Virus record (IMG/VR): IMGVR_UViG_3300033388_000691
Coordinates: 1 to 24,365 of that record
Length of the DNA: 24,365 bases
Direction: 5' to 3' (one strand)
Source of the DNA: a virus
This document shows positions 1 through 24,365 of the stretch, piece after piece. A program made the position numbers and the translations under genes. Position 1 is the first letter of the stretch. Every line of letters starts with the position of its first letter. The notes under the pieces are model-generated. The model was given only the letters and a program-made list of their open reading frames with translations. It ran no database searches and was not told where the DNA came from.

Positions 1-248
1 ATACTGATACAGAACCATCGTTTAATCTTATCGGAGGACAAATTCAACCAGGTGGAACTAGACCGCCAGCAACTTTTGTAGGCACCGCAGATAAAGCAAT
101 AACATATGTACCTACAAAAATGACAATCACAATCAACTGTGTTCCTGTTATTAGCAGAAACGCAATTAGTAACAACTTTAGTCTGAAAGACTATGCATCA
201 GGCAAACTGTTGCGTGGATCTCAGAGTAACGGCCCGGGGATTTGGTAA
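1..248 (+). CDS. Tail-tube cap-like protein gp48, C-terminal fragment (5' end outside window)
   Basis: The frame starting at base 3 is open from the window edge to a TAA at 246-248 and gives 81 residues of a C-terminus. Visible parts are a Gly/Pro-rich segment (IGGQIQPGGTRPP), then a beta-like stretch MTITINCVPVISRN followed by NNFSLKDYASGKLLRG. This ending resembles the C-terminal part of gp48/gp54-type tail-tube cap and initiator proteins of marine T4-like phages, which sit between the baseplate hub and the first tube ring. The position directly before gp53 supports that. The assignment rests on family resemblance plus gene order; most of the protein is missing. The stop overlaps the next ATG (TAATG). 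Another small tube or baseplate protein cannot be excluded. Confidence 0.5.
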   Translation, partial: TDTEPSFNLIGGQIQPGGTRPPATFVGTADKAITYVPTKMTITINCVPVISRNAISNNFSLKDYASGKLLRGSQSNGPGIW

Positions 249-565
249 TGCCACAGAATAATATATATCCAAAAACTAGTCCTTATAATAAAACAGGTGT
301 CATCAAAAACAAGTTTTTAGATGTTATGGAACCGTATACTGCGATTCCTAAAGATGCATCGGATGCATCTTTTACTATCACACCACAATATGAATTTAGA
401 CCTGATATGTTAGCACAAGATTTGTACAATGACTCTCGTTTATGGTGGGTATTTGCATCTCGTAACCCTAATGCATTAGGACCTGATCCTTACTTTAATT
501 TTAAATCAGGACTACAAATATTTGTTCCTAGAATGGACACCCTTAAACGTGTGCTAGGTATCTAA
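248..565 (+). CDS. 53: Baseplate wedge protein, gp53-like
   Basis: Encodes 105 residues from the ATG at 248, which overlaps the upstream stop as TAATG; a TTG two codons earlier (242) could also start the frame but is less likely. The core (YEFRPDMLAQDLYNDSRLWW, then VFASRNPN and FKSGLQIFVP) is the signature of the gp53 baseplate family: a small LysM-like fold with a DLYxDSRLWW helix and a final strand ending in a hydrophobic-Val-Pro motif. T4 gp53 is about 196 residues, so this is a compact version, as usual in marine relatives. In T4, gp53 clamps neighbouring wedges together around the hub. The neighbours (tube cap upstream, hub downstream) fit. A GGGGAT stretch lies 5' of the ATG as a possible ribosome-binding site. 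Confidence 0.85.
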   Translation: MPQNNIYPKTSPYNKTGVIKNKFLDVMEPYTAIPKDASDASFTITPQYEFRPDMLAQDLYNDSRLWWVFASRNPNALGPDPYFNFKSGLQIFVPRMDTLKRVLGI

Positions 566-3261
566 TGGCTACAATTAGCAGATACACTGAAGTTAATATT
601 GAAACATCACCTGGAGTAATTACTAACTTTAAATTACGTTCAGAGTATTATGGATATGATAGAGAGTGGCAAGGACAGAATGACATCATAATATCTGCCG
701 CGTCAGTTAATGGTAAACTGAGTGGTAGTGCTAAACCCATAGATCGACAAATTACAGCGGCAGAGAGTTTTTCAGAACCGGCCGCTTCTGAAATTTCAGC
801 AATTTTAAGACAACAAAAAACAGAAATTTTAGCCGAAGTATCCGCATTGCCGGCTGATGATCCTCAACGTGCCCCAGTAGTTGTCGAAGAGGCTGAAGTA
901 GAGGCAGACTCTGTTGATGATGCTTCAACTGGAGAAAATGCACAGACTGATGATCAACAAGTATCAGGAGGAAGCAACCCTGCAGGTAGTGACCCTAATG
1001 CCGCTCAACAAGCAAAACTAGATGAGACACAAGGTACAGAACAAACAACAAGTCCTAATATTGATGGTGGTGGCAATGCACAAAGTAATCCAAACACATC
1101 ATCAGCAGATGCACCGGGCAGACGATTAAAGAATCCATTAGGATCATTATCATCTTACACATATCAGATAAGTTTGTATATGATTACGCCAGATGCTTAT
1201 GATGCATTTCAAGCATCAGGTAGAAGACAAATCTCTGCATTAGAAGATGAAATAGGACAGGGCAGTGGTGGAGCCTATCTTATAGCACAATCAGGTGGTG
1301 TTAATAATAATACGTCACAAAGAGCACCTGGGTTTGAGTGGGATTATTACATTGATAATTTAAAACTTAAACAAGCAATATCAGGTAAAAGTACAAATTC
1401 ATCTACTAATATGTATGAAGTATCATTTGATATTTTAGAACCATATGGCTTTTCGTTTAATACAAAGTTAAGACAAGCAAGTGATGCACTACAGCAATAT
1501 TCAAATGATGCAGGTTATTCAGGTACTGGTAAAATAGATAATCCAACAAGACAATTTTTTGTGTTAGGTGTAAAATTTAACGGCTATGATAATGACGGTA
1601 ACTTAGCCAACGGAGCATTAGAGTTTGAAAACTCAGGGCCAATAGATCCCAATGCATCAGGTAATTCTTTATTTCAAGTTTATTATGATATAAACATTAC
1701 TAGTATTAAATTTACGATTGATGGCGGCGCCACACGATATGCATGTACAGGAGTTGCAGTAGCACCCGGCAAGGCTTTCGGTACAAAAAGAGGTAGAACT
1801 TTTTCTACGACAACAGTAATTGGAGCAACGTTTGATGAAGCCTTGCAAGGCGGTAAAGACGATATAGGCGGTAAAGGACTATTCACTCAAATTAACACAT
1901 TTGAACAATGGAAAGTTGATAACAAAATACAGGAGTTCGCCAACATTCATAGGGTAGAATACATTGGAGAAGATGTAGAAGCAATCAAAGATGCAAGACT
2001 TATCTTACCAACTGACACTGATAAAAGTAAATGGACTTCTGGAGACATAGAAAACACACAAGAATCAAATGACGCAACAGCCGCAAAAGCAGTACCAGAC
2101 GATTCAAAACGCAAAATTAATTTTAATGCAGACACTACATATATAGAAATTTTCGATGAAATTCTTAAAGGTAGTTCATATATGTATGATGCATTAAAAA
2201 TAGTTTACATGAGTCAAGCATCACCTAGCAAACAAGACAAAGAACAGCCTAGTTTAGATCCTAACAGTGCTAAAAAGATTGCTTGGTATAAAGTAACTCC
2301 GGTATTGTCTGCTCCTAAATGGGATTCTATAATCTCTGATTGGGCATATACGATGACATATAGAATAGAAACATATAAAACACCTGTCATCACATCTATT
2401 GGTACAAACGCCGGAGAAGAATATTATGGCCCTCACAAAAGATATGAATACTGGTGGACTGGAGAAAACAGAGAAGTTTTATCATACGAACAAAAATTAG
2501 ATAACTTATTTTACAATGAAGTATTAGGAAGTTCAAATGAATTAAATGAAGATGGAGTGGGCACTGGTGGTTCTACTCAGGTACCTGTTGCTCCAAATCA
2601 AAATGCATCCGGAGCTCCTAGAATGAATGCAATAGGTGGAGGAAGAGCATCTCAGAATCAATATGTTACAAGTTTGTATTCACCAGACTCATATGCACAA
2701 GCCAAAATTAGAATATTAGGAGATCCTGACTTTTTAGTACAAGATTACAGAGGTGGTCCTGATGCTGTTTATAATAGATTCTATGGAGAAGACGGGTACA
2801 GAATTTCTGCCAATGGTGGACAAGTGTTTATTGAAGTTGACTTTAAAGAAGCCGTTGATTATAATGATGAAACAGGAGTCATGGATATCAACGACTCTAT
2901 ATTATTTTATAAATACCCTGCTTGGGCTGAAGAAAAAATCAAAGGTGTTAGTTATCAAGTCATCACTGCTGTTAGTACATTTGAATCAGGAAGTTTTCAA
3001 CAAGAACTTACTGCTGTTATAAATACTTTTGCTGATTCTGATGCAGAAGCACCCGGAGAAAATCAAAGAGAAGAAAGTGAATCTACAAATCCAAACAGAG
3101 CCGGGCAAGAAGGAACAATGTCGTCAGGAAACATGACTACAGAAGATCAAACAGCAAATCAAAATTTAAGTGAAGTAACAGACTCTGGTGGGCAAAGTGC
3201 TACTGAAGCAGGTAATCCACCAACAACCGAGTCTGGCAACAATGACGATGCAGGTGGATAA
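565..3261 (+). CDS. Large virion structural protein, possible baseplate hub (gp27-like role)
   Basis: An 898-residue protein starting at an ATG that overlaps the gp53 stop (TAATG). Residues 1-95 form a folded N-terminal part. Residues about 95-187 are an acidic, Gln/Asn/Ser/Gly-rich linker that looks disordered. A long folded core follows from about 190 (NPLGSLSSYTYQISLYMITP). Around residue 590 come IAWYKVTP and WAYTMTYRIETYKTP, then HKRYEYWWTGENREVLSYEQ near 624, a Tyr/Trp-rich strand pair of a type seen in tail hub proteins. The last roughly 68 residues are again Gln/Glu/Ser/Asn-rich and probably disordered. Lying between gp53 and the gp5-like spike and coupled to both, it is a candidate for the trimeric hub platform that gp27 forms in T4. 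That function is inferred from position and texture; the safe call is virion structural protein. Confidence 0.6.
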   Translation: MATISRYTEVNIETSPGVITNFKLRSEYYGYDREWQGQNDIIISAASVNGKLSGSAKPIDRQITAAESFSEPAASEISAILRQQKTEILAEVSALPADDPQRAPVVVEEAEVEADSVDDASTGENAQTDDQQVSGGSNPAGSDPNAAQQAKLDETQGTEQTTSPNIDGGGNAQSNPNTSSADAPGRRLKNPLGSLSSYTYQISLYMITPDAYDAFQASGRRQISALEDEIGQGSGGAYLIAQSGGVNNNTSQRAPGFEWDYYIDNLKLKQAISGKSTNSSTNMYEVSFDILEPYGFSFNTKLRQASDALQQYSNDAGYSGTGKIDNPTRQFFVLGVKFNGYDNDGNLANGALEFENSGPIDPNASGNSLFQVYYDINITSIKFTIDGGATRYACTGVAVAPGKAFGTKRGRTFSTTTVIGATFDEALQGGKDDIGGKGLFTQINTFEQWKVDNKIQEFANIHRVEYIGEDVEAIKDARLILPTDTDKSKWTSGDIENTQESNDATAAKAVPDDSKRKINFNADTTYIEIFDEILKGSSYMYDALKIVYMSQASPSKQDKEQPSLDPNSAKKIAWYKVTPVLSAPKWDSIISDWAYTMTYRIETYKTPVITSIGTNAGEEYYGPHKRYEYWWTGENREVLSYEQKLDNLFYNEVLGSSNELNEDGVGTGGSTQVPVAPNQNASGAPRMNAIGGGRASQNQYVTSLYSPDSYAQAKIRILGDPDFLVQDYRGGPDAVYNRFYGEDGYRISANGGQVFIEVDFKEAVDYNDETGVMDINDSILFYKYPAWAEEKIKGVSYQVITAVSTFESGSFQQELTAVINTFADSDAEAPGENQREESESTNPNRAGQEGTMSSGNMTTEDQTANQNLSEVTDSGGQSATEAGNPPTTESGNNDDAGG

Positions 3262-6200
3262 TGGGTATTGATGTTTTTAAGCCTATAGGCGGACTAAAGA
3301 AAAATAAACCTGGAGCAGGCACCCAGTCTGTTATCCAAGTTCCTATTATTTGTACAGTAATGAATACAGTCGATCCTGAACGTCAGGGGCAGATCGCAGT
3401 ATACCCTTCAGAAAACTTAGATAAAAATTCAAACGATGTTAAAAATTGGTTATGGGTAAATAAACTTTCTACATTCTTTGGACAAACAGAAGGCATTTCT
3501 GCTGATGACGATTATGGTCAGTACGCCGGCAATCCTAGTTCATATGGACAGTGGAACTCTCCACCGGATAAAGGTACATTAGTTATTTGTATATTTGTTA
3601 ATGGTGATCCTAACTATGGATATTATATAGGAGCCGCCCCGTCTCCAGAAACGTTGTCAATGGTACCTGCAATAGGATCATCTGAAAATGTAACTCTTAA
3701 TGAAGGTGAAGCACAATCATACGGTGGAGCACCTCGACTTCCTACAACAAATCTTAATGTTAACAATAAAGATATCGCAGATAGTCCTACATATCTTGAG
3801 GATGCAAAACCAGTACATAGTTATACTGCATCTATCATGCAACAACAGGGTATTTTAAGAGACAAATATAGAGGACCTATTAGTACAAGTGCAACAAGAG
3901 AAGCATCAAGTAGAGTAGGTTGGGGTGTCAGTAGTCCGGGACGTCCTGTATATGAAGGTGGATTTACAGATGAGGATCTTCCAAGCAATTTAAGTGATGA
4001 AGATTTAGCAAAATACAGAGTAGTAACAAGAAGAGGTGGACACTCTATTGTATTAGATGACGGAGACATCATCGGTAGAGACCAATTGATCAGATTACGT
4101 ACTGCGTTAGGACATCAGATATTAATGAGTGATGACGGGCAAATGTTATCTATCCTACATTCAAATGGTCAATCATATATTGAATTAGGTAAAGAAGGAA
4201 CAGTTGATATTTTTAGCACAAACTCTATTAACTTGCGTACTCAAGGTGATCTTAATTTACATGCAGACGAAACACTTAATTTAAGTGCAAAAAATGTAAA
4301 CATAAACTCATCCGAAGACACTTACTTGAATGCAGACAAACAATTTAAACAAAGAGTAGGGGAAGATTATAACTTATTTGCCCTACAAAATATTAAAATG
4401 AAAGCCGATTCTGCATATGCAGTAAATGCTGTAGGTCAAATAGGATTAAAATCTGATGCAGAAATATTTAATGAAGCCGCAAAAATACATTTAAATGACG
4501 GAGCATCAAGTTTAAGTCCTGAAGTAGTAGAACCAATAGATGTTATTATGCACCCAGATACATTGTTTGATAGCACAGTAGGTTGGGCCGCCGCTCTTGC
4601 TAAACTTCCAAGTATTACTTCACGTGCTCCTGCACACATGCCGTGGATGAATGCTAATCAAGGTGCAGACGTAGAAGTAGATCCAAGTGCAGAAGGACAG
4701 TTGCCCGCAGAACCTACTGCTAAATTAGGTAATTTAAATGAGAACATTAGTGATTTAGCAACGTATCCTATAGGTCAAGGTGTAACACCAACGAGCGGCG
4801 CAGGCATTGATGAAATAGGAGCGATAAGTGACTCATTAGATAAAAACGTCACTTCGACTGTGTTGGCAGGTATCCAAGATATTACCTCAGACTTAAAAAC
4901 CGCAGGCTCTTTCGCACAAGCCGGAGTTGCTGGATCAGGCAGTACAGAATCTCTCATTCTAGGAGCATTTGGACAAACACCATCTCAAATGGCAGCAGGT
5001 GGAATCTTAAAGCCCGGGGCAGATATACTTGTTAATACGTTAGCATCTGCACCAGGATCAGGAGCCTTATTAAAGGCCGAATTTCGAGGCATAGTGCCTA
5101 AAGGAATTTTACCTCCTCAAGCATTTACAGGCTCAAGTGGAGTTAATAGTGTCGAACAATATCTAGGTTCAACTTCCGCACAAGCCCAAGGTGTCGTAAC
5201 AACATTGCAAAAAGGACAAAAAGCACTTCAAACTGTAGGGGCAATTACAGGTAAAGAAGCACCAGGTGGATTAGGAACGGTTGTAGCAGGTACATTAACA
5301 GCATCATCTAATGCAGGTGATATAGGAAAGAATGTTAAAGAAGTTACAGGTATTATTAACAAGTCTACAAGTTCTGGATTAACAGGGGGAACTCCTGATA
5401 ACGATATGCAGGGTGTTCTAAATCAAATGGCATCTGGAGCAGGAGCAGTTGTAGCATCACAACTTTCAGGAGCAGTAGGAGGAATTACTAAAGCATTAAA
5501 TACACTTGGAACTGAACTACCAGACATAGGGGTAGGAATAGATTTAAATATCGGCGCATCAGCATCTTCATTTAAATCTATCACATCATCCTTCGGTCAA
5601 TTAGAAGCAGGTGTACCACAAGATTTAGCGGCATTAGCAGGCGCCGGCGCAGCCGCAGTTGCTGGTGTAAGTGCAGGTATGAAAGGTATCGACTTAGCAA
5701 ACCCTGATACTATATCAGATCAGTTAGCATCTACTGTAGGTGCAGGAGATATTTCTGGAATAGTTAGTGGAGCCACAAGTAGTGTTACAGGAGCAGTTCA
5801 GGATATAGTAAACAATACAACTACACAAGTAGCATCTGATGCTATTGCAGGAGCAGTATCTGGTGTTGAAGCACTCGGAGGAAGTGTATCTAAACTAACA
5901 GAACAAGGTAAATTACAAAATGCCGCAACTCAAGTTCAAAGAGGGGCAACAGCATCAATATCGGCAACAGTAGCATCTGGGGTAAGTAATATTCCAGGTG
6001 GACAACAGATTGCATCAAGTGTAGTTAATAATGCACCTAATGTAGTGAATCCGATCGCAGACGGAATAGACACAGTTACCGGGGCATTACAAAATATTGG
6101 CACAGATGCATTTGATGGAGTAGATGTTGGAGATGCAGTTGCAAAAGGAGAATCTGTATTAGGAGATGCTATTGGAAGTCTTGGGGGCCTACTAAACAGT

Positions 6201-7196
6201 GTTAAAGATGAAGCCGGCGCATTGTTTAATGATGCATTAAGTCCAGGAGCAACAGCCGCATTAGAATCAGCACTTTCATCACTAACTGCAGGTGGCGGGT
6301 CAACTATTAAGTTGCCTACAGTAGCAATAAACACTTATGATAGATCAACTATTACTGATCTCATCGATGGAGTTATGGGTCCAGATATTATTCCAAGACC
6401 AAACTTATTAGGTCAAATACCAACAAGTGCAGTTACTGCGGTGAATGCATTAAAATCTTTAAGAAAAGAAATGTCTAGTGACATTAAAGCACTTAATAGG
6501 GCACAAGAAGATGTGGCTGATAAACAACGTGCATTATTTGAAGCACGATCACTATTCCCCGCAGGCTCAGAAGAAATTACGAGGGCAGAACGAGCATATG
6601 AACAAGCGGCAACATCGCCTTCATATCTTGCATTAATTCAGAAAGTGGCAAGTGCTAAAGAAACATTTGGAGATGCTATTCCTAATCCGACTCCGATACC
6701 AGCTCCGACTAATCCGTTTAGCAATATTGAAGCGGCAGTTCTCGCGGCATCTGAACGACCTTCCAATTGGGCAGGAGCCAGCAATACTTTATTACCAACT
6801 GATGAGGAAGTTGCTGAATATTATAATCCACAATCAATTTATTTTCTCAATAACCAGTATCTACCTACATATACTGACAATACGTATGCGGCTATTTTTG
6901 CTACGACTTCAAAAACATATGTGAAGAATAAAAGAACAGTATATCTGGATGAACCCTACAATACTGATTATACACCTATTATTAGCGGATTCCCGGCGCC
7001 CGAAAACACAGTCGAAAGTGTAACAGGTGAAGATATCGGAGATGGCCCATTAACAGTTACTGATGGACAAGGTGGTGTTGGTCAAGATGTTTACACAGAT
7101 TATGGAATACTTACTATTAATAACAACTTAGGAGTCGGTGGCGGAGGCGGTGGATTGAAATGGATTTACGACGGCGCCACTTGGAAGTTAAAATAA
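3261..7196 (+). CDS. 5: Baseplate central hub/spike protein, gp5-like, without lysozyme domain
   Basis: A 1311-residue protein whose ATG overlaps the previous stop (TAATG), with AGGTGG just upstream as ribosome-binding site. Residues about 24-127 match the gp5/VgrG OB-fold (VIQVPIICTVMNTVDPERQG, ending FVNGDPNYGYYIGAAP). Residues about 258-413 are the gp5 C-terminal type region: GGHSIVLDDGD, then LGHQILMSDDG, then repeated short strands (INLRTQGDLNLHADETLNLS) of the triple-stranded beta-helix needle. T4 gp5 (575 residues) carries a lysozyme between these parts; here the interval 130-255 is too short and shows no lysozyme motif. Residues about 500-1060 are an Ala/Gly/Ser/Val/Thr-rich extension, 1064-1137 a charged probable coiled coil, and the end has a six-glycine run followed by LKWIYDGATWKLK. 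It forms the cell-puncturing spike on the tube axis. Confidence 0.85.
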   Translation: MGIDVFKPIGGLKKNKPGAGTQSVIQVPIICTVMNTVDPERQGQIAVYPSENLDKNSNDVKNWLWVNKLSTFFGQTEGISADDDYGQYAGNPSSYGQWNSPPDKGTLVICIFVNGDPNYGYYIGAAPSPETLSMVPAIGSSENVTLNEGEAQSYGGAPRLPTTNLNVNNKDIADSPTYLEDAKPVHSYTASIMQQQGILRDKYRGPISTSATREASSRVGWGVSSPGRPVYEGGFTDEDLPSNLSDEDLAKYRVVTRRGGHSIVLDDGDIIGRDQLIRLRTALGHQILMSDDGQMLSILHSNGQSYIELGKEGTVDIFSTNSINLRTQGDLNLHADETLNLSAKNVNINSSEDTYLNADKQFKQRVGEDYNLFALQNIKMKADSAYAVNAVGQIGLKSDAEIFNEAAKIHLNDGASSLSPEVVEPIDVIMHPDTLFDSTVGWAAALAKLPSITSRAPAHMPWMNANQGADVEVDPSAEGQLPAEPTAKLGNLNENISDLATYPIGQGVTPTSGAGIDEIGAISDSLDKNVTSTVLAGIQDITSDLKTAGSFAQAGVAGSGSTESLILGAFGQTPSQMAAGGILKPGADILVNTLASAPGSGALLKAEFRGIVPKGILPPQAFTGSSGVNSVEQYLGSTSAQAQGVVTTLQKGQKALQTVGAITGKEAPGGLGTVVAGTLTASSNAGDIGKNVKEVTGIINKSTSSGLTGGTPDNDMQGVLNQMASGAGAVVASQLSGAVGGITKALNTLGTELPDIGVGIDLNIGASASSFKSITSSFGQLEAGVPQDLAALAGAGAAAVAGVSAGMKGIDLANPDTISDQLASTVGAGDISGIVSGATSSVTGAVQDIVNNTTTQVASDAIAGAVSGVEALGGSVSKLTEQGKLQNAATQVQRGATASISATVASGVSNIPGGQQIASSVVNNAPNVVNPIADGIDTVTGALQNIGTDAFDGVDVGDAVAKGESVLGDAIGSLGGLLNSVKDEAGALFNDALSPGATAALESALSSLTAGGGSTIKLPTVAINTYDRSTITDLIDGVMGPDIIPRPNLLGQIPTSAVTAVNALKSLRKEMSSDIKALNRAQEDVADKQRALFEARSLFPAGSEEITRAERAYEQAATSPSYLALIQKVASAKETFGDAIPNPTPIPAPTNPFSNIEAAVLAASERPSNWAGASNTLLPTDEEVAEYYNPQSIYFLNNQYLPTYTDNTYAAIFATTSKTYVKNKRTVYLDEPYNTDYTPIISGFPAPENTVESVTGEDIGDGPLTVTDGQGGVGQDVYTDYGILTINNNLGVGGGGGGLKWIYDGATWKLK
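4975..6440 (+). other. Low-complexity Ala/Gly/Ser/Val-rich extension inside the gp5-like protein
   Basis: About 490 residues (roughly 572-1060 of the hub protein) made almost only of Ala, Gly, Ser, Val, Thr, Ile, Leu, Asn and Asp, with many short segments such as LAGAGAAAVAGVSAGMKG and IAGAVSGVEALGGSVSKL. Aromatic residues and Cys are almost absent. No exact tandem repeat was found; the segments are a degenerate pattern of short amphipathic helices separated by Gly/Pro turns. The base composition is locally GC-richer (for example 5639-5660). No family is recognised. It lies after the beta-helix needle, where T4 gp5 ends. Confidence 0.7.
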
Positions 7197-7201
7197 CAGG
7201 G

Positions 7202-7209
7202 TATAAATA
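7202..7209 (+). promoter_or_regulatory. TATAAATA box, T4-type late promoter candidate before gp25
   Basis: An exact TATAAATA lies in the 18-base gap between the hub gene and gp25. This is the T4 late-promoter core read by the gp55/gp33/gp45 system. With T4 spacing the start would fall at about 7215, on the A of the gp25 ATG, so a transcript from here would be leaderless. In AT-rich DNA a few exact copies are expected by chance, and two more occur inside the upstream structural gene (2908-2915 and 3018-3025). Only this one is intergenic. It could instead be an unstructured AT-rich spacer. Confidence 0.35.
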
Positions 7210-7214
7210 GTATT

Positions 7215-7664
7215 ATGGCAACTTACGTAGGATTTTCAACAATAAACGCAGACAAAAGGCGAACGGTGAATAATCCTCCGGCTATAGATGGTCAAGCCAA
7301 TGGTATAACTAAACCTATTATTTTTGGTAAGAAGTTTAAATTGACAGATGAAAAGTTAGTTATACAAGATTTAGTTAACGCACTCAATATCAGACGGGGA
7401 GAAAAAGTAGGTCAACCTAATTACGGCACAAAATTATGGGACTTTATTTTTGAACCAAACACCTCTGACGTACAATCTGCAATACAGAATGAAGTTAGAC
7501 GAGTTGCAGGTTTAGATCCTCGTATTCATATCAACACAATACGAGTATTTCCTAAAGAAAACGGTATTTTAATTGAAGTACAACTATCAATCAATCCATA
7601 TAATAATGCTGGAGATTTAGCATTATTCTTCGACTCGCAGACAAACACAGCCGCAATAGCATAA
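7215..7664 (+). CDS. 25: Baseplate wedge protein gp25 (GPW/gp25 family)
   Basis: Encodes 149 residues, against 132 for T4 gp25. Residues about 50-140 carry the gp25/TssE-family pattern: a helix VIQDLVNALNIRRGEKVGQP, then NYGTKLWDFIFEPNTSD, then VQSAIQNEVRRVAGLDPRI and two closing strands (INTIRVFPKENGILIEVQL). The FEPN segment corresponds to the conserved EP motif region of this family. In T4, gp25 binds gp6 and has a sheath-like fold that starts sheath polymerisation at the wedge. It is followed directly by gp6, its structural partner. The gene begins 18 bases after the hub stop. A CAGGG (7197-7201) lies 13 bases from the ATG, far for a Shine-Dalgarno site, so initiation may be weak or partly dependent on upstream translation. 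Confidence 0.92.
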   Translation: MATYVGFSTINADKRRTVNNPPAIDGQANGITKPIIFGKKFKLTDEKLVIQDLVNALNIRRGEKVGQPNYGTKLWDFIFEPNTSDVQSAIQNEVRRVAGLDPRIHINTIRVFPKENGILIEVQLSINPYNNAGDLALFFDSQTNTAAIA

Positions 7665-7713
7665 AAAAAGTCGGTTTTTCCATAAAGATAAATATAATAA
7701 ACAGGGAATTACT
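7665..7713 (+). promoter_or_regulatory. Gene-start spacer before gp6: weak inverted repeat, GATAAATA box and strong ribosome-binding site
   Basis: This is the longest gene-free stretch in the window (49 bases). It begins with an A-run, GTCGG and a T-run (about 7665-7680), which could pair as a five-base A/T stem; that is too weak to call a terminator. GATAAATA at 7687-7694 differs by one base from the T4 late core. With T4 spacing, transcription would start near 7700, leaving a short leader that includes AGGGA at 7703-7707, six bases from the gp6 ATG. Unlike the other boxes here, the geometry works for a real promoter with its ribosome-binding site. Confidence 0.45.
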
Positions 7714-11079: not shown

Positions 11080-11082
11080 GGT

Positions 11083-11090
11083 TGTAAATA
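11083..11090 (+). promoter_or_regulatory. TGTAAATA box before the giant gene
   Basis: The 15-base gap between gp6 and the giant gene holds TGTAAATA, one base off the T4 late core, and AAGG at 11078-11081. At T4 spacing the transcription start would lie at about 11096, inside the start codon, so use as a promoter for this gene is doubtful. It shares the TAAATA core with the gaps before gp25 and gp6. Confidence 0.2.
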
Positions 11091-11094
11091 AAAT

Positions 11095-17000: not shown

Positions 17001-20000
17001 TAACCAAGACAACGTGTATGAATGGAAGACTGGACTCAAATATGCAAAAGGCGAAATTGTAAAATATAAAAACAAGTATTTTACAGCAATTAGAACAGTC
17101 GAACCAAATGAGAAGTTTGAAGAATTAAATTGGACAGAGACTGATTATAATGATATACAAAAAGGCTTGTTACCTAACTCTGCTACTCGTTCTTATGAAA
17201 GTACGTTGTATTATAATAGTACAAAAGCAAACTTAGAAAATGATGCTGATCAGTTGTCTTTCTCGTTAATTGGATTTAGACCTAGAGATTATTTGTCAAG
17301 TGTAAATCTATCTGACATCACTCAAGTTAATGTTTATAAAAACTTAATACAATCTAAAGGTACAACAAACGCAGTATCAGCATTTAAAGGAACTCAATTA
17401 CCAACAGGTGGAATTGATTATGATGTTTATGAAAACTGGGCTATTCTTTCAGGAGAGTTCGGTGGAACACTAAACAACAACTTTGTTGACTTTAAATTAG
17501 ATGAAGCAAAACTAACAGGTGATCCAGGTATCGTATCTTTAACAGAAGGCACACCTACTATTGGAGCACAACAAGAAGTATCAGTACACAACTTGTTTAA
17601 TTATGCAAGACCTATTGACAGTCCTGACATTCTATCGACACTACAATATGAAGACCCATTAAGTCTTTATCCTACAGCAGGATATGTAAATTACGATGAT
17701 GTTAAGATGGCTAGTTATTATTATAAAGACTTAACAAGTAGAGCAATAAGTTCTACAGGTCAACAAGTTCCAGTTCAAAACTTCTATGTAAGAGATTACA
17801 TGTGGTTAGCAAACTTTAAAGAACAATGGCAAGTATATTCTATTAAGCCAGTTGGTCGTGTAATAAGAGTTACACCAAACAATAACAATTCAACTACAAT
17901 CACATTTGATGGAAGACACGGACTATCAAAACTTGATCCAGTATCATTTATTAACGTTGCTGGTAATGTCGATGGCTATTATCTCGTAACAAATGTTAAT
18001 AATCTTACATCTATAACAATTAATCTATCACTAGAAGAAGCATCAGTTGATTTTGATTCGGCAAACGGTTTAGGCTTAACATTTGTTCAACAACGTGTAC
18101 AAGAACCAGGTGACATTGCAGACTTAGATTTAAATGAATCAGAGTTCTCAAAAAATACTGTTTGGGTAGATAAAGCATCAGACGGTAACTGGGGTGTATA
18201 TCGTAAGTCTATTAATTATAGTCTAACAAATAACTTGGGTAGAGCAGACGGACAACAGTTCGGTAGTGCTGTAGCATATACTCCAAGAATGGGGTACTTA
18301 ATAGGTGACTCAGCCGCAGGTAAAGTTTATCGTTATGGTTTAAACCCTCAGACAAATGCATTTGATGAAGACACTGGAAGTCTTTTAACTGGTGCGGCGT
18401 CATTCGGTACAGCAATTGCTTACTCTAAGAATCTATTTGTAATCAGTGAACCCGAAACATCACTGGTGCCCTTGCCCTTTTCAACACTTAGAATTTACAC
18501 ACTAAATGATTCTGTATTATCAGATGACATTACATTATTACAAACATTTACTTCATCGTTTGGTTCAGGTACAAGTCTTGCAATTAGTGATGATCAAAAT
18601 TATATCTTTGCAGGTAACCCTAGTAATAATTCAGTACAAGTTTATAATAGACAACGTATACCTTTAACTGCAGGATATTTCAATATAGGTGAAACATATG
18701 AAATTACTAGTGTAGGTACAACAGACTTTACAGCATTAGGTGCAATAGAAAACAAAGTAGGAATAATTTTTGTATCAACTGGCATAGGCACTGGTACTGT
18801 TGACACCTCAGCAGATTGTATATCGATTGGCGCGCCGAACACAGCATCTCCAACTTCAAAAGTTAATTGGGGAGAAAATTATGTGTACTCACGTTTAGTA
18901 CAAAATATAGAATCACAATATACTGCAATACCTAATCAACCGCAACAGTATCCATTAGCATGGTCTACACTGTTTACCAGCAGAACTGCAAGTGCGGTAG
19001 CATCTAGTGTTATTACTGCTAATGCAACAATGACAGGGTTTAATAATGACGATCCTGTAGTCTTTAGTGAAGGTGGAAATTATGGTAATACAGGAATTAC
19101 ACCTAATCAAGTTTATTACTTGTCTGATATATCAGGTAGCACGTTTAAATTAAAAGAAAGTAGATCAAGTGCATCGACATTGACATTTACAGATGATACT
19201 GTTAACTTTAACATTTTTGTGCAAACAGAACCGTTGTTAGTTTCTGTTAACGGAACAATAGTTGATGATAACAATTATGCAGTTGGTGGAGGCACATCAG
19301 ACTTTAGATACTTCGGAGACATTAGAGCAGGAGATATCATTACAATTAGTTCTCGTAATATTCAATGGGTACAAACAATGGTACCAGATGAAGATGTAAG
19401 AGTAGGTGTCTTTATGGGTTATGCATCTGATATGGCATCATACGGCAGTGAGATATTAATGGGTGCTCCTGGAGAAATCAGAATTGACGGAGCAAAACAA
19501 ACCGACGGGACAGTTTATAGATACACGAACGGTGGAGGAAAGTACGGCACAGTAATCGGTACTTCTAATACACTATTGACTACTGATAGAAAATTATTAA
19601 TTAATGGTTATCTAGTTGAACTACCAAGTGGAGCAAATGCATCTTCAGTTGCAAGTCTCATAAATCAGTATGGTATTACAAATGTAACTGCTAGTGCATC
19701 AGACGGCAAACTTATCATTTCTACTATAGATCAAAGTTTAGCCCTTGTCAATGAAAAATTAAAATTACAAGCACCAAATATTGCGACATTTGCAGAACTT
19801 GGTATCTCAGTCTATTCTATGACACAGACAATTCATGCACCACATAATGTAAGCAGAACATTATTTGGTAATACAATTAAGTTTAATGAAAGTGATTCTG
19901 TTGTAATTTCTGCTCCAGTATCAACTAGATTCTTAGCAACGACATTTGATTTTATTGATGATGAAAATTTAGATAACGATACGATTTTTGATAACAACGC

Positions 20001-23000
20001 AACACGTTTTGTTGACACTTGGGATAATGCAGGCGCAATTTACATGTATGATTATCTTGCAAACTATAATGGATCTATTGCTGATCCAGGCAAGTTTTCA
20101 TATGCACAAAACTTAAACAGCCAAGATCAAACTTATGGTTTTGAACCGCAGTATGGAACAGCATTAGACTTCACTGACAATCAAGTTGTTGTAGGTACTC
20201 CTAACTTAAGTATTGGAGACTTAGAAGGACAAGTTACATTATTCCAAAACTCAGGTACTGCTAAAGACTGGGTACTTTATCGACAATCATCAACTATAGT
20301 AGATATTGATAAAATACAAAACGCACAAATTTATAGTGCTGAGACCAACAACACATTAGTCAATTTAGATTATTTGGATCCAATGCAAGAAAAACTATTA
20401 GGAGCAGTCAGAGAAAATATTGATTACGTTAATAGTGCAGATCCTGCAGTTTATAATTCTGAAATAGGTGGTATTAATTCAGGACTAACTTGGGGTACTA
20501 ATCAGATAGGTCATATTTGGTTTGATACTTCAACAACTAGATGGATAAACTATCATCAAAATGATGTAACATATAATGCTAGATTCTGGGGCAGAGTGTT
20601 CCCGGGCTCTACTCCAACATGTTGGACATGGGTTAAATCAACTAGACCGCCTACTGAATATACAGGCCCAGGAGTTGTAAGAGCAAATACCCAATACAGT
20701 GTTGAAGCAGATTTAAATGCATCAAACACAATTACACCTTGTTATTATTTCTGGGTACGTGGTACTAATATCATACAGAGTGATAAAACATTAAGTGACG
20801 TTACATTAGAACAATATATTGTAAATCCAACTAGATCGGGTATACCGTATTTTACACCTTTATTACAAAATACATTTGCTTTATATAATGCACAAGAATA
20901 TATTAATACAACTGATAGTGTATTCCACATAGGTTACGGAACAGGCAACAATGATGACCCTGCTCACCAAGAATTTAATTTAATTAAAGATGGTGAACCA
21001 GATGACTTCTTACCTGGTCTACCTAAGTTCGGACCACAAACTTCAACTAACAGACCAGAAGGACTTTATGATCGTTTGTTAGATTCGATGTCAGGTGTTG
21101 ATGAAGTAGGAGAAGTTGTACCTAATCCGTATCTTCCAAAAGCAGTTCAGTCTGGCGTATTAGCACGACCAAGACAAAGTTTCTTCTTTAGTAGATTCTT
21201 AGGATTAGAAAACTACTTAGAATATGCAAACAAAGTTCTTGCTGAATACCCAATTGCAGAAACAAGACAAGATGCAACATACTTATTTGCTAGTGGTACA
21301 TATTACAATACAGCAGATTACTGGCAGTATGTCAACTGGTGGTTACCAACAACTAATCCTGTAGGACAATACAACAACAATACTAAGTCAACTGTTAGTG
21401 TTGCAATTTACGCAGACCTTGCAAAACTTAATGTAGATATAAACACTATTGCTACAGTAGAAGCAAACGGCGACGGTAAATGGGAAATGTATCGTTACGA
21501 TGGCAACAGCATTTGGACACGTATTGGTTTAGAAAATGGTACGATACAATTTAACACATATCTTTGGGACTATGCCGCAGGCAAAACAGGATTCGGAGAT
21601 AACTTCTTTGACACAGCAAACTTTGATGAATATCCAAGTGAAGAAACACGTTGGATTATTCGTGCATTAAACGAACAAATTTATATTGACGAACTAGTTG
21701 AATTTAGAAACAAGTCGTTGATTATTTTATTTGAATACATTCAAAGTGAGACAGATGAATCGCAAAACTATTTGCCTTGGTTAAATAAAACATCGTTAGT
21801 AGATGTATCTCATGTCATTAGAGAATTAAAACCAATTCAGAATTATCAACAAGATAACCAAGAGTTCTTGTCAGGATATATTAATGAAGCAAAACCTTAT
21901 CACGTAGTTATTAAAGACTTCTTGTTTAAATATACAGGTATCGATACGTTTGAAGGAAATATCACAGACTTTGATTTACCTGCTGAATGGAACGAACAAG
22001 AGCAATCTTATATTTCACCTCAGTTAGTATATGATAATGTAGATTCACCTTCTGAATTTTTACCATTCTTTGAATGGCAGACTCCTGCATATATTAATTG
22101 GTACAATAACTATGGATTATCATTAGTTGGACAGACTGATTATGAGATTACAGAATTAAATGAATACATGACGATTGGTTCAGTAGTTGTAATGGTAGAC
22201 AATGCACAAGGATTCCCAATCAACGGCACAATACAAATTGACAAAGAAATTATTAGTTACTCTTTTGTTGATCGTGCTTTAAATATTATAGGTGGATTAC
22301 AAAGAGGTCTAAACGGAACAGAACCTACTACGCATTTACCAGGTGCAAAGATTTTCATGGACTTACCAGCAGTGGTAATATTAGACGGTGGTAAAAATTA
22401 TGTTGAGCCGCCCAAGATAACAGCATACATTGATTTAGACAAATACCCAGCGCCAAGAGTTGATGCACAACTTGAAGCAGTAATGAGTGTTGACAGTGTA
22501 ATCGGTGTGAACGTAATAAATCCCGGAGAAGGGTATGCTGTGTTACCAGAAATTAGAATTGCACCAGCAGAACAATTATTCTTTACTAATGACGATATTA
22601 ACTCTACATTACATACGATTAAATTGTTTGCACCAAGTCTACAAACTGGTAATTTGATACAATATAAAGACGATAGTACAACGAATGCAACTGTAACTAG
22701 ATTAGTTGATGGTCAGTGGTACTATGTAAATGTACTAGAAACAACACCGACAACAGTTGTCGCATTATATACAAGTTATGATGATGCTGTCAATCAAGTC
22801 AATAGAGTCGAACTAAGTGCAGGCGCAACTGACGGAGACTTTGCACTTAACGTTGGTGCTAAAGCATCTGCAATTACAAGTTCAGAACCTACAAGAGAAA
22901 ATAATATTGCTGTTCGATTTGATAGAACTTCTTACACAAGTCAAATCTTAGATTGGGAAGCAAATGTTTTTTATGGTTCGTTCTTTGCAGGTAGTTACTT

Positions 23001-24365
23001 TAATAGTGAAAATGTTTCAAGTTCATCTATATCATTACAAGCAACACAACCACCAATAACAGACATTTCAGCATCAGCACAAGGCGCAATATTTGAAATA
23101 ACTAATGTAACAAATGATCATCAGATTTATTATACTGAATTTAAACGTACTGTAGAATTAACAGAAGCGGCAGGCAACTTTATTAGACTAGACCCATATG
23201 ACGAAAACAATGGTGAACTTAATTCATCAGGCTCAACAGTTGGTTTCTATGTAGGTATGCCAATTAAATTTACTGGTGCAGTAATAGGTGGCATTGTCAA
23301 TGAGCAAGTTTACTATATACATTCTATTATTAATATAACAGACTTTACAATCAGTGAAACACCCGGTGGAGCAATTAAGACTTTACCAGATGCAACAGCA
23401 ACAAGTGCTGGTATGTTTGCATATGCTGGAGAAGTAACTGATACTGCTGTAGTAACTCTTAACTATCCTGGCTTGTTAACAGCAACTGCAACAGAAGCAG
23501 TGTCAAATAAAATTACAATTCCACAAAGTGTTATAGGCACAGGTGGTACAGACGGATTCTATATAGGTATCCCATTATTCTTCACAGGCACAATGATTGG
23601 TGGCATAGAAGAAAATGACGTTTACTATGTAACAACTGTAGTAGACGAACAAACTATTACAATAAGCGCCACAGAGACGCCTCTGACGACCACAGTGAGT
23701 GCTACAACGACTTCAACAAATGTTGTGACTGTTGCAGACACTACAGGATTCTCAGTCAACGATCCAATTATATTCAATATGATGCTTAACGCAAGTGGTA
23801 ATAAAATTACAGACTTTGGTGGAATTGCATCAGGTACTGTATACTATGTAAATGAAATTGTGTCAGCAACTGAATTAAAAATCGGAGTTAGTGTAAACGT
23901 ATCGCCACTAGCATTGTCTACAGTAACAACAGGCTCAGCATTGTTAACTAATCAGAAAGATACATTAGACTTAACTACAGCAACTGGTTCTATGTTAATG
24001 AACGTGTCACTTCCTGTATCACCAGGTCAGGTTGACGGACAGAAGTTTACGATGTATAATACATCTGCATACTATACAGATATTACGTCCGGTGTATTAA
24101 CAGATACACTTGACAGATCATGTTATGCAACTATTGCAGGAGATAATGCACAGGGAACTGATAATAGAATTGCATTAAGTGACCAAGACAAAGGAACATT
24201 TAATTTCTATACTGATATGCCAATACAGTTTAACTCTGTGCCAGGTGGATCAGGACTTTCTACTGGTGTAACGTATTATCTTTTTGACTTCTCTACTGAC
24301 GGAGACGAAAGTACATACATTACTGTAGATTGTACATCAACATCATCTAGCACAAATAGAATCAC
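11095..24365 (+). CDS. Giant modular baseplate/tail structural protein (3' end outside window)
   Basis: One reading frame runs from the ATG at 11095 to the window edge: 4423 complete codons without a stop. The N-terminus (IRTLEFLPEIFKTSTNAQFL, then LDQLVNEPKTQ, GVNANDRYVTEP and LINFNQYYWIPEGP, residues 3-140) matches the start of the very large structural proteins that follow gp6 in marine T4-like phages. Other parts of that type are the QAPKFDIYDKNGISLGDT region near 895, GAVRENIDYV near 3105, and GLYDRLLDSMSGVDEVGE near 3323. Embedded modules include a possible CBM5/12-like segment (1973-2015), an FG-GAP propeller (2378-3050), a QRGLNGT module (3694-3753), GGxxYxxPP strands (3763-3820) and YY-core repeats (4028 to end). 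No signal peptide or membrane segment is seen. By position it replaces T4 gp7/gp8/gp10, so an outer wedge or receptor-contact role is likely but inferred. AAGG lies 13 bases before the ATG. Confidence 0.85.
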   Translation, partial: MAKIRTLEFLPEIFKTSTNAQFLGATLDQLVNEPKTQTLQGYVGSKFGYGVNANDRYVTEPNKTRTDYQLAPGTAFLNENQSTAKDFLTYPELIDALRLKGGVTLDNSRLFKSEFYSWDSFTDLDKLINFNQYYWIPEGPPAVTVASATVFSESDYIVTDTSNAYSIKALGAGAGSLNPTLTLLRGGSYRFAVNQETQFWIQGVPGVTGLDGAEDTRQILGVNNNGANTGYVTFTVPTRSAQDEFLFPGNNTVGVVSTKLFSEVNGLTVSQVGNIDGVTSLEGLTVMFYQTEEPNEIGFVQSFFDENGANYDVNLTSPEIVAPVTLAIDETTSSQLKLSSGTTSDLVANQTVTFTAVPASDPLLGGLDVDTIYYVKDIIDSTSFTISLTLNGPTLSLTPDTGSMVANVNEGLWEEGFYTNVNENFYTITYVGDSTDPTIRLIPAGVIPTEEKITVQFGTDYIGLDFYRSLAGEITKIPYLSALLDTLYYQDGTNANKVGVIKLIESNLTNTLDVDEDIIGQKTFTSTNGITFTNGLKVQFDGDVVPSNYLSGEYYVQGVGESINLIPTTDLTVPEDFTGTNYIPYDSLPYSIGNFDTELFIPIDQDYITIGRNSINRNAWSRSNRWFHIDVINASAEYNDDPSIVTNYATGTAKAKRPIVEFYPNLKLFDSGTIAKAPVDFIDTRTTNAFDQVANKQQYYPDIETYTSYTATIAGVTGTSTTITIPTTDIYTKFEVGMYVTDSNFALPTNTLITDISVAGTNTIITVEFASATVVGQSNVSIVGSDTTVNNYELFSGARIVFTADTNSEVKNKIYVVGFSTISFGSTPVITLTEAEDGLCLADDQVVALRGYNYQGSTFWFDGASWEEAQQKLTVNQAPKFDIYDKNGISLGDTSVYQGSSFLGNKLFAYGKGTGTNDAILGFPLRYSAVDNVGDISFDCSFNVDSFSYVTGTTPVTEKVNTGYVYNYSTRTDKTRELGWQTALAPSVQYQIFELEYTAGTEATFTCDVAVIPEATDSWPRIQVYLNNEYQLDSKYTISETDNTTTITLNTAPIVDTPIQILVLSNQTSTSAYYSIPINLSNNPFNTDLEVADIGDIRSQYQDIFINNPDSTGTIFGANNLRDLGNLVPYGTKIIQNSASLVLPSVFLRRSEHNLFDALQFNSDQYIQYKQQLVKTVNDLDWERRFDPSYILDTALEQIVSAKSEGDSFFWSDMIPSQAPYKSNTYTFANALQESIYPLAQTYDFTEANYKGVLVYLTRTTSGATKTTQLLRDVDYVVSTTAPSLTVTKDLEAGDVVTIKEYNQTYGNFVPNTPTKLGLYPKWKPEVVLDPNYQTPTYMLRGHDGSYTSLYTLDYTPETGLTDFRDQALLEFETRVYNNIKLSTLVPIERYEVLPGFFRDSTYSTEDYLKIYSSQFLNWAGQNRIDYKTQTGYTKTNEFSWNYYESGNKLDNKPIDQGYWRGVYEYFYGTSQPNIAPWEMLGFPEMPSWWTARYGSAPFTKDNGIMWGDIEAGIIYNTGGTTSVTVDELKRPGLSKIIPVDDHGDLLSPFDALVGNYDSNTFQRDWKVGDDAPAEFSYRRSSSYPFDLMRIFALTRPAEFFNLSADLDNYKYNTEFKQYLVNDRSHLDINAIQIYGNGIAKTSFINWIVDFEKQQGVDATNEITTLLDNLDVRLIYRLAGFSDKTLLKFFVEKATPNSDNASLLIPDESYAVLLHDNQPNDQLKYSSVIIQIVKDGWKVFGNSQSQAYFTIDTPISNGKSSKVEVDGYSVKIANDYTTSATDEKIVPYGTQFYSFQAVSQFLASYGAWLKRKGMVFDLIENGAEVNWTTMIQEYLYWTQYNWEKGSLITVNPSAQTLKIEKESDIVQPLTVQQSNFLLNQNLYPIALKDLAVERLDTKFQAKTLNEGDVMAYGQFNLSNIEHGIVFDNNTVFNDVIYNLTTGLRQNRIYLRGTKTAEWNGTVNASGFILNQDNVYEWKTGLKYAKGEIVKYKNKYFTAIRTVEPNEKFEELNWTETDYNDIQKGLLPNSATRSYESTLYYNSTKANLENDADQLSFSLIGFRPRDYLSSVNLSDITQVNVYKNLIQSKGTTNAVSAFKGTQLPTGGIDYDVYENWAILSGEFGGTLNNNFVDFKLDEAKLTGDPGIVSLTEGTPTIGAQQEVSVHNLFNYARPIDSPDILSTLQYEDPLSLYPTAGYVNYDDVKMASYYYKDLTSRAISSTGQQVPVQNFYVRDYMWLANFKEQWQVYSIKPVGRVIRVTPNNNNSTTITFDGRHGLSKLDPVSFINVAGNVDGYYLVTNVNNLTSITINLSLEEASVDFDSANGLGLTFVQQRVQEPGDIADLDLNESEFSKNTVWVDKASDGNWGVYRKSINYSLTNNLGRADGQQFGSAVAYTPRMGYLIGDSAAGKVYRYGLNPQTNAFDEDTGSLLTGAASFGTAIAYSKNLFVISEPETSLVPLPFSTLRIYTLNDSVLSDDITLLQTFTSSFGSGTSLAISDDQNYIFAGNPSNNSVQVYNRQRIPLTAGYFNIGETYEITSVGTTDFTALGAIENKVGIIFVSTGIGTGTVDTSADCISIGAPNTASPTSKVNWGENYVYSRLVQNIESQYTAIPNQPQQYPLAWSTLFTSRTASAVASSVITANATMTGFNNDDPVVFSEGGNYGNTGITPNQVYYLSDISGSTFKLKESRSSASTLTFTDDTVNFNIFVQTEPLLVSVNGTIVDDNNYAVGGGTSDFRYFGDIRAGDIITISSRNIQWVQTMVPDEDVRVGVFMGYASDMASYGSEILMGAPGEIRIDGAKQTDGTVYRYTNGGGKYGTVIGTSNTLLTTDRKLLINGYLVELPSGANASSVASLINQYGITNVTASASDGKLIISTIDQSLALVNEKLKLQAPNIATFAELGISVYSMTQTIHAPHNVSRTLFGNTIKFNESDSVVISAPVSTRFLATTFDFIDDENLDNDTIFDNNATRFVDTWDNAGAIYMYDYLANYNGSIADPGKFSYAQNLNSQDQTYGFEPQYGTALDFTDNQVVVGTPNLSIGDLEGQVTLFQNSGTAKDWVLYRQSSTIVDIDKIQNAQIYSAETNNTLVNLDYLDPMQEKLLGAVRENIDYVNSADPAVYNSEIGGINSGLTWGTNQIGHIWFDTSTTRWINYHQNDVTYNARFWGRVFPGSTPTCWTWVKSTRPPTEYTGPGVVRANTQYSVEADLNASNTITPCYYFWVRGTNIIQSDKTLSDVTLEQYIVNPTRSGIPYFTPLLQNTFALYNAQEYINTTDSVFHIGYGTGNNDDPAHQEFNLIKDGEPDDFLPGLPKFGPQTSTNRPEGLYDRLLDSMSGVDEVGEVVPNPYLPKAVQSGVLARPRQSFFFSRFLGLENYLEYANKVLAEYPIAETRQDATYLFASGTYYNTADYWQYVNWWLPTTNPVGQYNNNTKSTVSVAIYADLAKLNVDINTIATVEANGDGKWEMYRYDGNSIWTRIGLENGTIQFNTYLWDYAAGKTGFGDNFFDTANFDEYPSEETRWIIRALNEQIYIDELVEFRNKSLIILFEYIQSETDESQNYLPWLNKTSLVDVSHVIRELKPIQNYQQDNQEFLSGYINEAKPYHVVIKDFLFKYTGIDTFEGNITDFDLPAEWNEQEQSYISPQLVYDNVDSPSEFLPFFEWQTPAYINWYNNYGLSLVGQTDYEITELNEYMTIGSVVVMVDNAQGFPINGTIQIDKEIISYSFVDRALNIIGGLQRGLNGTEPTTHLPGAKIFMDLPAVVILDGGKNYVEPPKITAYIDLDKYPAPRVDAQLEAVMSVDSVIGVNVINPGEGYAVLPEIRIAPAEQLFFTNDDINSTLHTIKLFAPSLQTGNLIQYKDDSTTNATVTRLVDGQWYYVNVLETTPTTVVALYTSYDDAVNQVNRVELSAGATDGDFALNVGAKASAITSSEPTRENNIAVRFDRTSYTSQILDWEANVFYGSFFAGSYFNSENVSSSSISLQATQPPITDISASAQGAIFEITNVTNDHQIYYTEFKRTVELTEAAGNFIRLDPYDENNGELNSSGSTVGFYVGMPIKFTGAVIGGIVNEQVYYIHSIINITDFTISETPGGAIKTLPDATATSAGMFAYAGEVTDTAVVTLNYPGLLTATATEAVSNKITIPQSVIGTGGTDGFYIGIPLFFTGTMIGGIEENDVYYVTTVVDEQTITISATETPLTTTVSATTTSTNVVTVADTTGFSVNDPIIFNMMLNASGNKITDFGGIASGTVYYVNEIVSATELKIGVSVNVSPLALSTVTTGSALLTNQKDTLDLTTATGSMLMNVSLPVSPGQVDGQKFTMYNTSAYYTDITSGVLTDTLDRSCYATIAGDNAQGTDNRIALSDQDKGTFNFYTDMPIQFNSVPGGSGLSTGVTYYLFDFSTDGDESTYITVDCTSTSSSTNRI
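17011..17145 (+). other. Possible CBM5/12-like carbohydrate-binding segment in the giant protein
   Basis: Residues about 1973-2015 read NVYEWKTGLKYAKGEIVKYK, then NKYFTAIRTVEPNEKFEELN and W. The order Trp, Tyr-x-x-Gly-(Asp/Glu)-x-Val, Tyr, Lys-x-Tyr-(Tyr/Phe)-x-Ala, Pro, then a closing Trp is the pattern of small chitin/cellulose-binding modules of the CBM5/12 type, which phages use on tail proteins to contact glycans. The match is by eye on a short pattern, and this fold is also used as a plain structural module. Confidence 0.4.
18226..20262 (+). other. Seven-bladed FG-GAP-like beta-propeller domain in the giant protein
   Basis: Residues about 2378-3056 contain seven degenerate units with an opening FG or YG strand, then a hydrophobic-(I/V/A)-G-x-P strand, then a G-x-V-Y-x-Y strand. 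Visible units: FGSAVAY...LIGDS..GKVYRY (2389-2413); FGTAIAY...VISEP...LRIYTL (2437-2470); FGSGTSLAIS...FAGNP..SVQVY (2489-2518); CISIGAPN...YVYSRL (2576-2601, opening strand displaced); FMGYAS...ILMGAP...GTVYRY (2772-2810); FGNTIKF...VVISAP...GAIYMY (2924-2985); YGTALDF...VVVGTP...GQVTLF (3021-3049). This is the blade signature of FG-GAP/integrin-alpha propellers, which usually have seven blades. No DxDxDG calcium loop is obvious. Other modules interrupt the propeller between blades 3-4, 4-5 and 5-6. Confidence 0.6.
18670..18804 (+). other. VGTTDFTALGA module inserted in the propeller
   Basis: Residues about 2526-2570 read AGYFNIGETYEITSVGTTDF then TALGAIENKVGIIFVSTGIG and TGTV. This roughly 45-residue unit, with a Tyr-x-Ile-x-x-Val-Gly-Thr-Thr-Asp-Phe-Thr core and a Gly/Thr tail, is a familiar small beta module that recurs in structural proteins of marine phages. 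Here it falls between the third blade and the IGAP strand of the fourth. Function unknown. Confidence 0.55.
22174..22554 (+). other. QRGLNGT and GGxxYxxPP beta modules in the giant protein
   Basis: Residues about 3694-3753 (VVVMVDNAQGFPINGTIQID, then KEIISYSFVD and LQRGLNGTEPTTHLPGAKIF) match a module common in phage tail proteins: a Phe-Pro-x-x-Gly strand, an (I/L)-x-x-E-x-I-x-Y strand, an (Q/T)RG-x-x-GT turn and H-x-x-G. Straight after come two strands of the GG-x-x-Y-x-x-PP-x-(I/V) type (LDGGKNYVEPPKITAYID and VINPGEGYAVLPEIRIAP), another short unit frequent in marine phage tail proteins. Both are structural modules; no catalytic residues are visible. Confidence 0.5.
23176..24365 (+). repeat. 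Tandem degenerate YY-core beta modules at the right end of the giant protein
   Basis: Four consecutive protein-level repeats of about 65-100 residues start near residues 4028, 4137, 4208 and 4355. Each has a strand with D/G-x-P-(I/L)-x-F, then GG(I/L)-type turns, then a (V/T)YY(I/V/L) core (GIVNEQVYYIHSI, GIEENDVYYVTTV, GIASGTVYYVNEI, GLSTGVTYYLFDF), and the first three then have a (F/I/L)-(T/K)-I-(S/G) strand and a Thr/Ser-rich tail. Isolated copies occur earlier at about residues 332-405 (GGLDVDTIYYVKDIIDSTSF), 516-585 (YLSGEYYVQGV) and 2640-2705 (GITPNQVYYLSDI). They diverge at DNA level, so the duplications are old. The series continues past the window edge. Confidence 0.65.

Follow-up and report, generated by a model that had tools for sequence, protein, structure and literature searches.

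Palindromic sites survive beside GG in a clade of dpdA-bearing metagenomic phages, probably through 7-deazaguanine shielding combined with site purging

The window analysed here, a stretch of 24,365 nucleotides that makes up the entire IMG/VR virus record IMGVR_UViG_3300033388_000691, raises the question of why a phage should almost lack the pentamer GCWGC and choose its codons differently in consecutive alanines (Ala-Ala pairs) than in isolated ones. An earlier note had explained both by a single restriction-modification (R-M) system of GCWGC specificity. We found that in the clade to which the window belongs palindromic sites are purged unless a site guanine falls in GG, and that dpdA and the preQ0 pathway accompany this rule wherever enough sequence exists. 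Taken as a whole, we regard it as very probable that the window is a piece of a marine T4-like jumbo phage genome in which a DpdA-type 7-deazaguanine at GG would shield sites from host restriction, the unshielded ones having been purged by mutation.

Site counts are given as observed/expected throughout, and the null model was a shuffling of synonymous codons that keeps the proteins and the codon usage, with a stricter variant that also fixes the next base. The GCWGC depletion in the window is real and deeper than the earlier note supposed, its "about ten or more" expected sites being too low: 2 were seen against 25.5 in the shuffles (z -10.5; none of 300 shuffles equally low), or 23.1 when the next base was fixed as well. 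GCAGC occurs at 4992 and 5649 alone, and GCTGC is absent. AGCT, not mentioned in that note, was depleted even more strongly (2/51), and the record from 1 to 24365 is purged both of AGCT and of GCWGC without a GG flank. GCCGC and GCGGC are, as had been remarked, well represented, GCSGC being in fact overrepresented (30/6). The codon choice also stood: of the 28 Ala-Ala pairs, 26 open with GCC or GCG (15 and 11, respectively) and the other two with GCA, and alanines outside pairs favour GCA (397) and GCT (99) over GCC (35) and GCG (18). This pattern is explained by the fact that GCC or GCG before GCN removes GCWGC and creates GG/CC. As for the use of AGT after GGC in Gly-Ser pairs, cases do exist, but they are just three. 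Depletion of CATG and of CATCC/GGATG, suggested by a Markov count, disappeared or became smaller under the codon-aware null.

To place the window among its relatives, 80 metagenomic sequences were gathered with its gp6 protein; isolate phages are far off (gp6 protein identity of 33% or less). In the window's lineage (about 78% or more gp6 identity), which appears to be marine judging from sample context, AGCT is depleted and GCWGC mostly so, whereas the sister group (68-72% identity), probably freshwater-rich, is without depletion of either. In the coding DNA of G001 (128 kb), the largest contig of the window's lineage, AGCT gave 0/260 and GCWGC 23/156, so the signal that the earlier note proposed to look for in relatives is genome-wide. 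The sister genome G032 (267 kb) had normal GCWGC (420/419), and also normal AGCT, together with scarce TCGA (29/433). Since G001 and G032 avoid different sites, the avoided set is lineage-specific. The purge list of the sister group (L061/G032 and other contigs) comprises, besides TCGA, AGATCT (0/66) as well as CAGCTG and CTGCAG without GG.

The avoidance acts on DNA. In 15 contigs of the window's lineage (about 0.9 Mb), HGCWGCD, that is, GCWGC with neither G before nor C after, was seen 0 times against about 741 expected, and it was absent from every codon phase (expected 9, 29 and 703). Intergenic DNA of the same pool, compared with simple composition, was likewise emptied of AGCT (2/90) and HGCWGCD (0 against about 10), while TGCA was not depleted. 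Because all phases and intergenic DNA are empty of HGCWGCD, a codon-pair effect is ruled out, and it is avoidance at the DNA level that forces the codon choice in Ala-Ala pairs, as the earlier note had it. A separate observation in pooled contigs of the window's lineage is the depletion of GGAGG/CCTCC (142/392), with GGAGGT affected mainly on the coding strand; this is probably avoidance of internal Shine-Dalgarno-like sequence, distinct from the GG rule.

The GCWGC sites that remain in the relatives are not random. GCAGCC is kept but GCAGCA, GCAGCG and GCAGCT are not, and when neighbours were tabulated HGCWGCD gave 0 against about 560, every survivor having G before or C after. Likewise, TCDHGA is purged from among TCNNGA sites while TCCNGA and TCNGGA are near normal, CCGCG is normal for the core CGCG and GGCGC for the core GCGC, and CGWCG is also flank-dependent. 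We then kept each core fixed and varied only its neighbour. Without GG, GCWGC gave 0/554, CTGCAG 0/141, GTGCAC 0/24, GACGTC 0/34 and CGATCG 0/22, versus 117/160, 94/111, 30/64, 8/13 and 8/9, respectively, with GG. The values for GCGC were 1/159 without and 358/294 with GG, and those for CGTACG 1/20 and 12/11, for CGCG 8/150 and 106/80, and for CGWCG 16/235 and 72/105. Matrices of 4x4 neighbours showed, in three independent sets, that a 5' G alone rescues G-cores and a 5' C alone C-cores, a single GG on either strand being sufficient. Protection is not tied to one position of the GG: rescue comes from a G after the site when the core ends in G, and from a G before it when the core starts with G. 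The pooled contigs are related and their counts are not independent events; nevertheless, the effect is present in each contig separately.

The same rule holds, with their own site lists, in the sister genomes G034 and G032 (CTGCAG in G034, 0/55 without versus 30/38 with GG). When every palindromic core and its neighbours were scanned without bias in G001 plus G066 (a companion contig described below), G034, G032 and G041, 27 rescues came to light, all by a 5' G at a G-core or a 5' C at a C-core. An independent set of 80 sister-group dpdA loci (freshwater), a few of them duplicates of genomes used earlier, was examined for six cores chosen in advance and gave 10/443 without and 154/269 with GG. 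In the control phages 121Q, Atu_ph07 and CAjan, some of the same sites are purged regardless of GG (GG-flanked, 0 against about 37 expected). The survivors in the window follow the rule, since both GCWGC copies touch GG and both AGCT copies sit between GG/CC pairs. The GCAGC at 4992-4996 has a G before it, giving the GG-protected context GGCAGC (4991-4996, plus strand, ATGGCAGCAGG), and the one at 5649-5653 a C after it, giving GCAGCC with GG on the opposite strand (5649-5654, plus strand, GGCGCAGCCGC). The AGCT at 2613-2616 has GG and CC flanks (2611-2618, CGGAGCTCCT) and that at 6701-6704 has CC on either side (6699-6706, ACCAGCTCCG). In the relatives, adjoining GG eased AGCT avoidance a little (AGCTCC 27/170, AGCTGG 17/211, other 57/2626), and a protected base next to AGCT may help slightly.

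These results led us to set aside the claim that GCWGC, as distinct from GCNGC, is the target. GCWGC flanked by a 5' G or a 3' C survives as well, and the survival of GCSGC cannot separate the two because GCSGC always holds CC/GG and reflects GG protection. As to simple avoidance of the TseI/ApeKI type, the depletion did extend to all phases but was not independent of the flanks, GGCWGC and GCWGCC being kept.

The genes that could provide such protection were located by inspecting the open reading frames (ORFs) of G032 near its QueE and FolE genes, followed by a check of the fold. G032 encodes a QueE-like protein (44736-45578), QueD (46327-46740), FolE (47245-47928) and a DpdA-like protein of 518 aa (51331-52884), and an IMP dehydrogenase gene is also there; its dpdA and baseplate regions share one contig. 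QueE, QueD, FolE and DpdA are all encoded by G034 as well and by G066 (128,446 nt), a contig from the same metagenome (3300025151) as G001 (128,169 nt), and in G066, G032 and G034 FolE, QueD and QueE adjoin dpdA, which in G066 lies at 71484-72971. The purge signature of G066 is that of G001 (AGCT 0/287, TCDHGA 23/215, GCWGC 0/102 without and 15/32 with GG), with AGCT at 0/535 in the two together, and the two contigs probably make up a single jumbo phage genome, roughly 257 kb long, whose halves are not joined in the data. Contigs that bear dpdA and show the purge signature of the window's lineage, G066 among them, were retrieved by a conserved-peptide pattern and protein search. In all, dpdA was found in G032, G034, G066, G065, G067, G068 and G070, and four more metagenomes yielded both baseplate contigs and dpdA contigs of that lineage. 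Relatives of dpdA are common in metagenomic phages.

A model of the marine DpdA (pLDDT 84.9) had tRNA-guanine transglycosylases (TGTs) as all 46 of its 46 PDB matches at E<=0.001, and the DpdA of the clade is thus predicted to have a TGT fold. At the level of sequence the protein is remote: the Pfam TGT family (PF01702) did not recognise dpdA although the gene is present, a profile of DpdA found no match when PDB sequences were searched, and, at the cut-off applied, DpdA of the clade type was detected neither in CAjan nor in other classical phages.

On this basis we propose protection in two layers. In the first, the phage DpdA, supplied by FolE, QueD and QueE, would swap the guanines of GG for a 7-deazaguanine derivative, so that a site with any guanine in GG, on either strand, would become uncuttable by host type II enzymes; we infer, by analogy, that both guanines of GG would be replaced. 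In the second, mutation has removed the sites that cannot be shielded, that is, AGCT, HGCWGCD, HGCGCD, DCGCGH, TCDHGA and others, along with CGWCG and CTGCAG lacking flanking GG. In Ala-Ala pairs, a change of GCA or GCT to GCC or GCG ahead of an alanine codon both destroys GCWGC and makes GG/CC. The palindromic, R-M-like form of the purged sites and the lineage-specific list point to host restriction as the selecting agent.

Phages with 7-deazaguanine DNA made via DpdA, such as 9g, CAjan and Vid5, have been described (Hutinet 2019, Kot 2020, cited in PMC8306585). The clade resembles these systems, as summarized there, in having FolE, QueD, QueE and a DpdA with predicted TGT fold, and the same resistance to restriction enzymes would be expected. 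According to the same summary, the CAjan system modifies G in the GA and GGC contexts (Kot 2020, cited in PMC8306585), and context-restricted 7-deazaguanine therefore exists, but the context suggested for the clade is any GG, with both guanines modified. In the clade, a G placed after a G-ending core is enough for rescue regardless of the base beyond it, neighbours that do not make GG do not rescue, and the genome of CAjan is without the GG exemption that the clade shows. Unlike the known DpdA phages, the clade would couple its modification with a near-complete purge of GG-less sites.

Restriction-site avoidance is a general phenomenon in phages, and the clade conforms to it in that palindromic sites of 4-6 bp are absent to a degree that neither composition nor codon usage explains, and in that their list is lineage-specific; it departs from it in that the avoidance depends on the neighbouring base, a core being kept if it touches GG. 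Enzymes of the corresponding specificities include TseI/BbvI (GCWGC/GCAGC), Fnu4HI (GCNGC), AluI (AGCT), Hpy188III (TCNNGA), Hpy99I (CGWCG), PstI (CTGCAG), HhaI (GCGC) and BstUI (CGCG). The sites purged in the clade are recognition sequences of such type II enzymes, although none of these enzymes was found in the present data.

Several points weigh against DpdA shielding. On the marine-lineage baseplate contigs, as in the window record itself, dpdA is absent, and the link is made by the shared sample, the shared signature and the gene order of G032. QueC was weakly detected (PF06508, 25.6 bits in G032 and 23.3 in G001), and that step of the preQ0 pathway is uncertain in the clade. The purge of TCDHGA and CGWCG is strong yet incomplete. 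Moreover, the GG rule is present in every clade genome that is big enough, and no clade member lacking dpdA was available for telling the effect of the gene apart from the rule; the cultured Pseudomonas phage PA5oct shows no clear GG rule despite a 34% identical DpdA, its purging being too slight for use as a positive control.

The alternative that survives best is that cytosine is protected instead, a methyltransferase or hypermodification at CC shielding the sites with DpdA unrelated to it. CC and GG are the same duplex and indistinguishable from sequence, and G001 does encode a SAM synthetase, along with a number of small methyltransferase domains of class I. We nevertheless hold this to be unlikely, since the C5-cytosine methylase family PF00145 was found in none of 49 clade records, dpdA contigs included, PF01555 was found in one outgroup genome only, and DpdA with FolE, QueD and QueE occurs in all three lineages with enough coverage. 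Very improbable, in our view, is a nuclease of the phage itself that degrades host DNA at AGCT/GCWGC-like sites, with GG modification as self-protection. The near-absolute absence of AGCT in G001 and G066 would suggest exposure in each infection, and a PDDEXK_15 "phage putative endonuclease" is present in G001 and the outgroup, but a dozen unrelated palindromic specificities would require many phage nucleases, and sister lineages differ in their purged lists although they have the PDDEXK gene in common.

Slightly less probable still is the lone host R-M system of TseI, ApeKI or BbvI specificity favoured in the earlier note. GCWGC methylation is natural, for example in Chloroflexi (PMC6329791), and the depletion in the window is strong; GCWGC (TseI) is moreover inseparable from asymmetric GCAGC (BbvI), because GCAGC on one strand reads as GCTGC on the other. 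However, GG-flanked GCWGC is kept although enzymes of the TseI type would cut it when unmodified, and at least nine palindromic cores, GCGC and CTGCAG among them, obey the flank rule, with AGCT and TCDHGA purged too. That a bias of translation or of mutation, such as codon pairs or deamination, produced the pattern with no selection on DNA sites is scarcely credible, for although 24 of the 25.5 GCWGC expected in the window lie in one codon phase, the pool is purged in all phases and between genes, outgroup GCWGC is normal, and the replacements by GCC or GCG, which turn A or T into C or G, run counter to deamination, which is ruled out.

Returning to the proposed DpdA shielding, a separate lineage of dpdA loci (L384, L385, L386 and L388), whose DpdA is about 40% identical to that of G032, behaved differently. 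There, GATC gave 1/76 without GG versus 72/67 as GGATC, while GGCGC was not spared (1/19), and GCGC, GCWGC and CTGCAG were purged even when touching GG. Apparently this DpdA protects GGA and not GGC, which suggests that DpdA contexts vary and may be inferable from site survival. PA5oct carries a 34-37% identical DpdA homologue annotated as "hypothetical" (L324:15013-16635, PQE65_gp168, YP_010679046.1), and elsewhere its genome is annotated with two QueD genes as well as with FolE and QueE-like ones.

The window itself encodes a T4-like baseplate module, all on the plus strand. It comprises a gp53-like baseplate wedge gene (242-565; phrog_7145, 9.6e-22), a gene for a virion structural protein of 898 aa (565-3261; phrog_11190, 2.5e-13), an Ala-rich baseplate hub/tail lysozyme gene that is the site of many Ala-Ala pairs (3261-7196; phrog_13211, 3.6e-33), a gp25-like wedge gene (7215-7664; phrog_261, 2.5e-12) and the gp6-like wedge gene used as query for gathering relatives (7714-11079; phrog_10646, 1.3e-250). 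A giant structural gene, called as an ORF and with an ortholog in G001, follows at 11095-24363 with its 3' end open, 4423 aa lying within the window; the G001 ortholog has 6429 aa (37212-56498), and the window is without its second half. G001 further encodes the SAM synthetase MetK (108833-109963; L088:8833-9963) and an IscU/NifU-like protein (110023-110409). Among the best 80 MetK relatives listed, most are alphaproteobacterial (51-59% identity), a weak hint of an alphaproteobacterial host for the window's lineage.

Phage DNA with 7-deazaguanine and restriction-site avoidance are both known, separately. In the literature searched we found no description of the GG context, of two layers acting on the same sites, of modification specificity deduced from site survival, or of neighbour-conditional avoidance shared by about ten cores. 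The protected bases of partial modifications are normally learned from isolates via mass spectrometry or Nanopore; because unprotected sites are absent while protected ones remain, the GG context and the natural restriction specificities would be readable from the genomes of uncultured phages. We think it reasonably likely that site survival records modification specificity, with one DpdA lineage modifying both guanines of GG and the L384-L388 lineage GGA but not GGC, and that such contexts could be catalogued. If this is true, the R-M specificities that phages without a known host encounter in nature would also be readable from sequence, many dpdA phages from metagenomes would offer predictions of enzyme specificity that can be put to the test, and chemical camouflage would complement purging by mutation, the two layers acting on the same sites.
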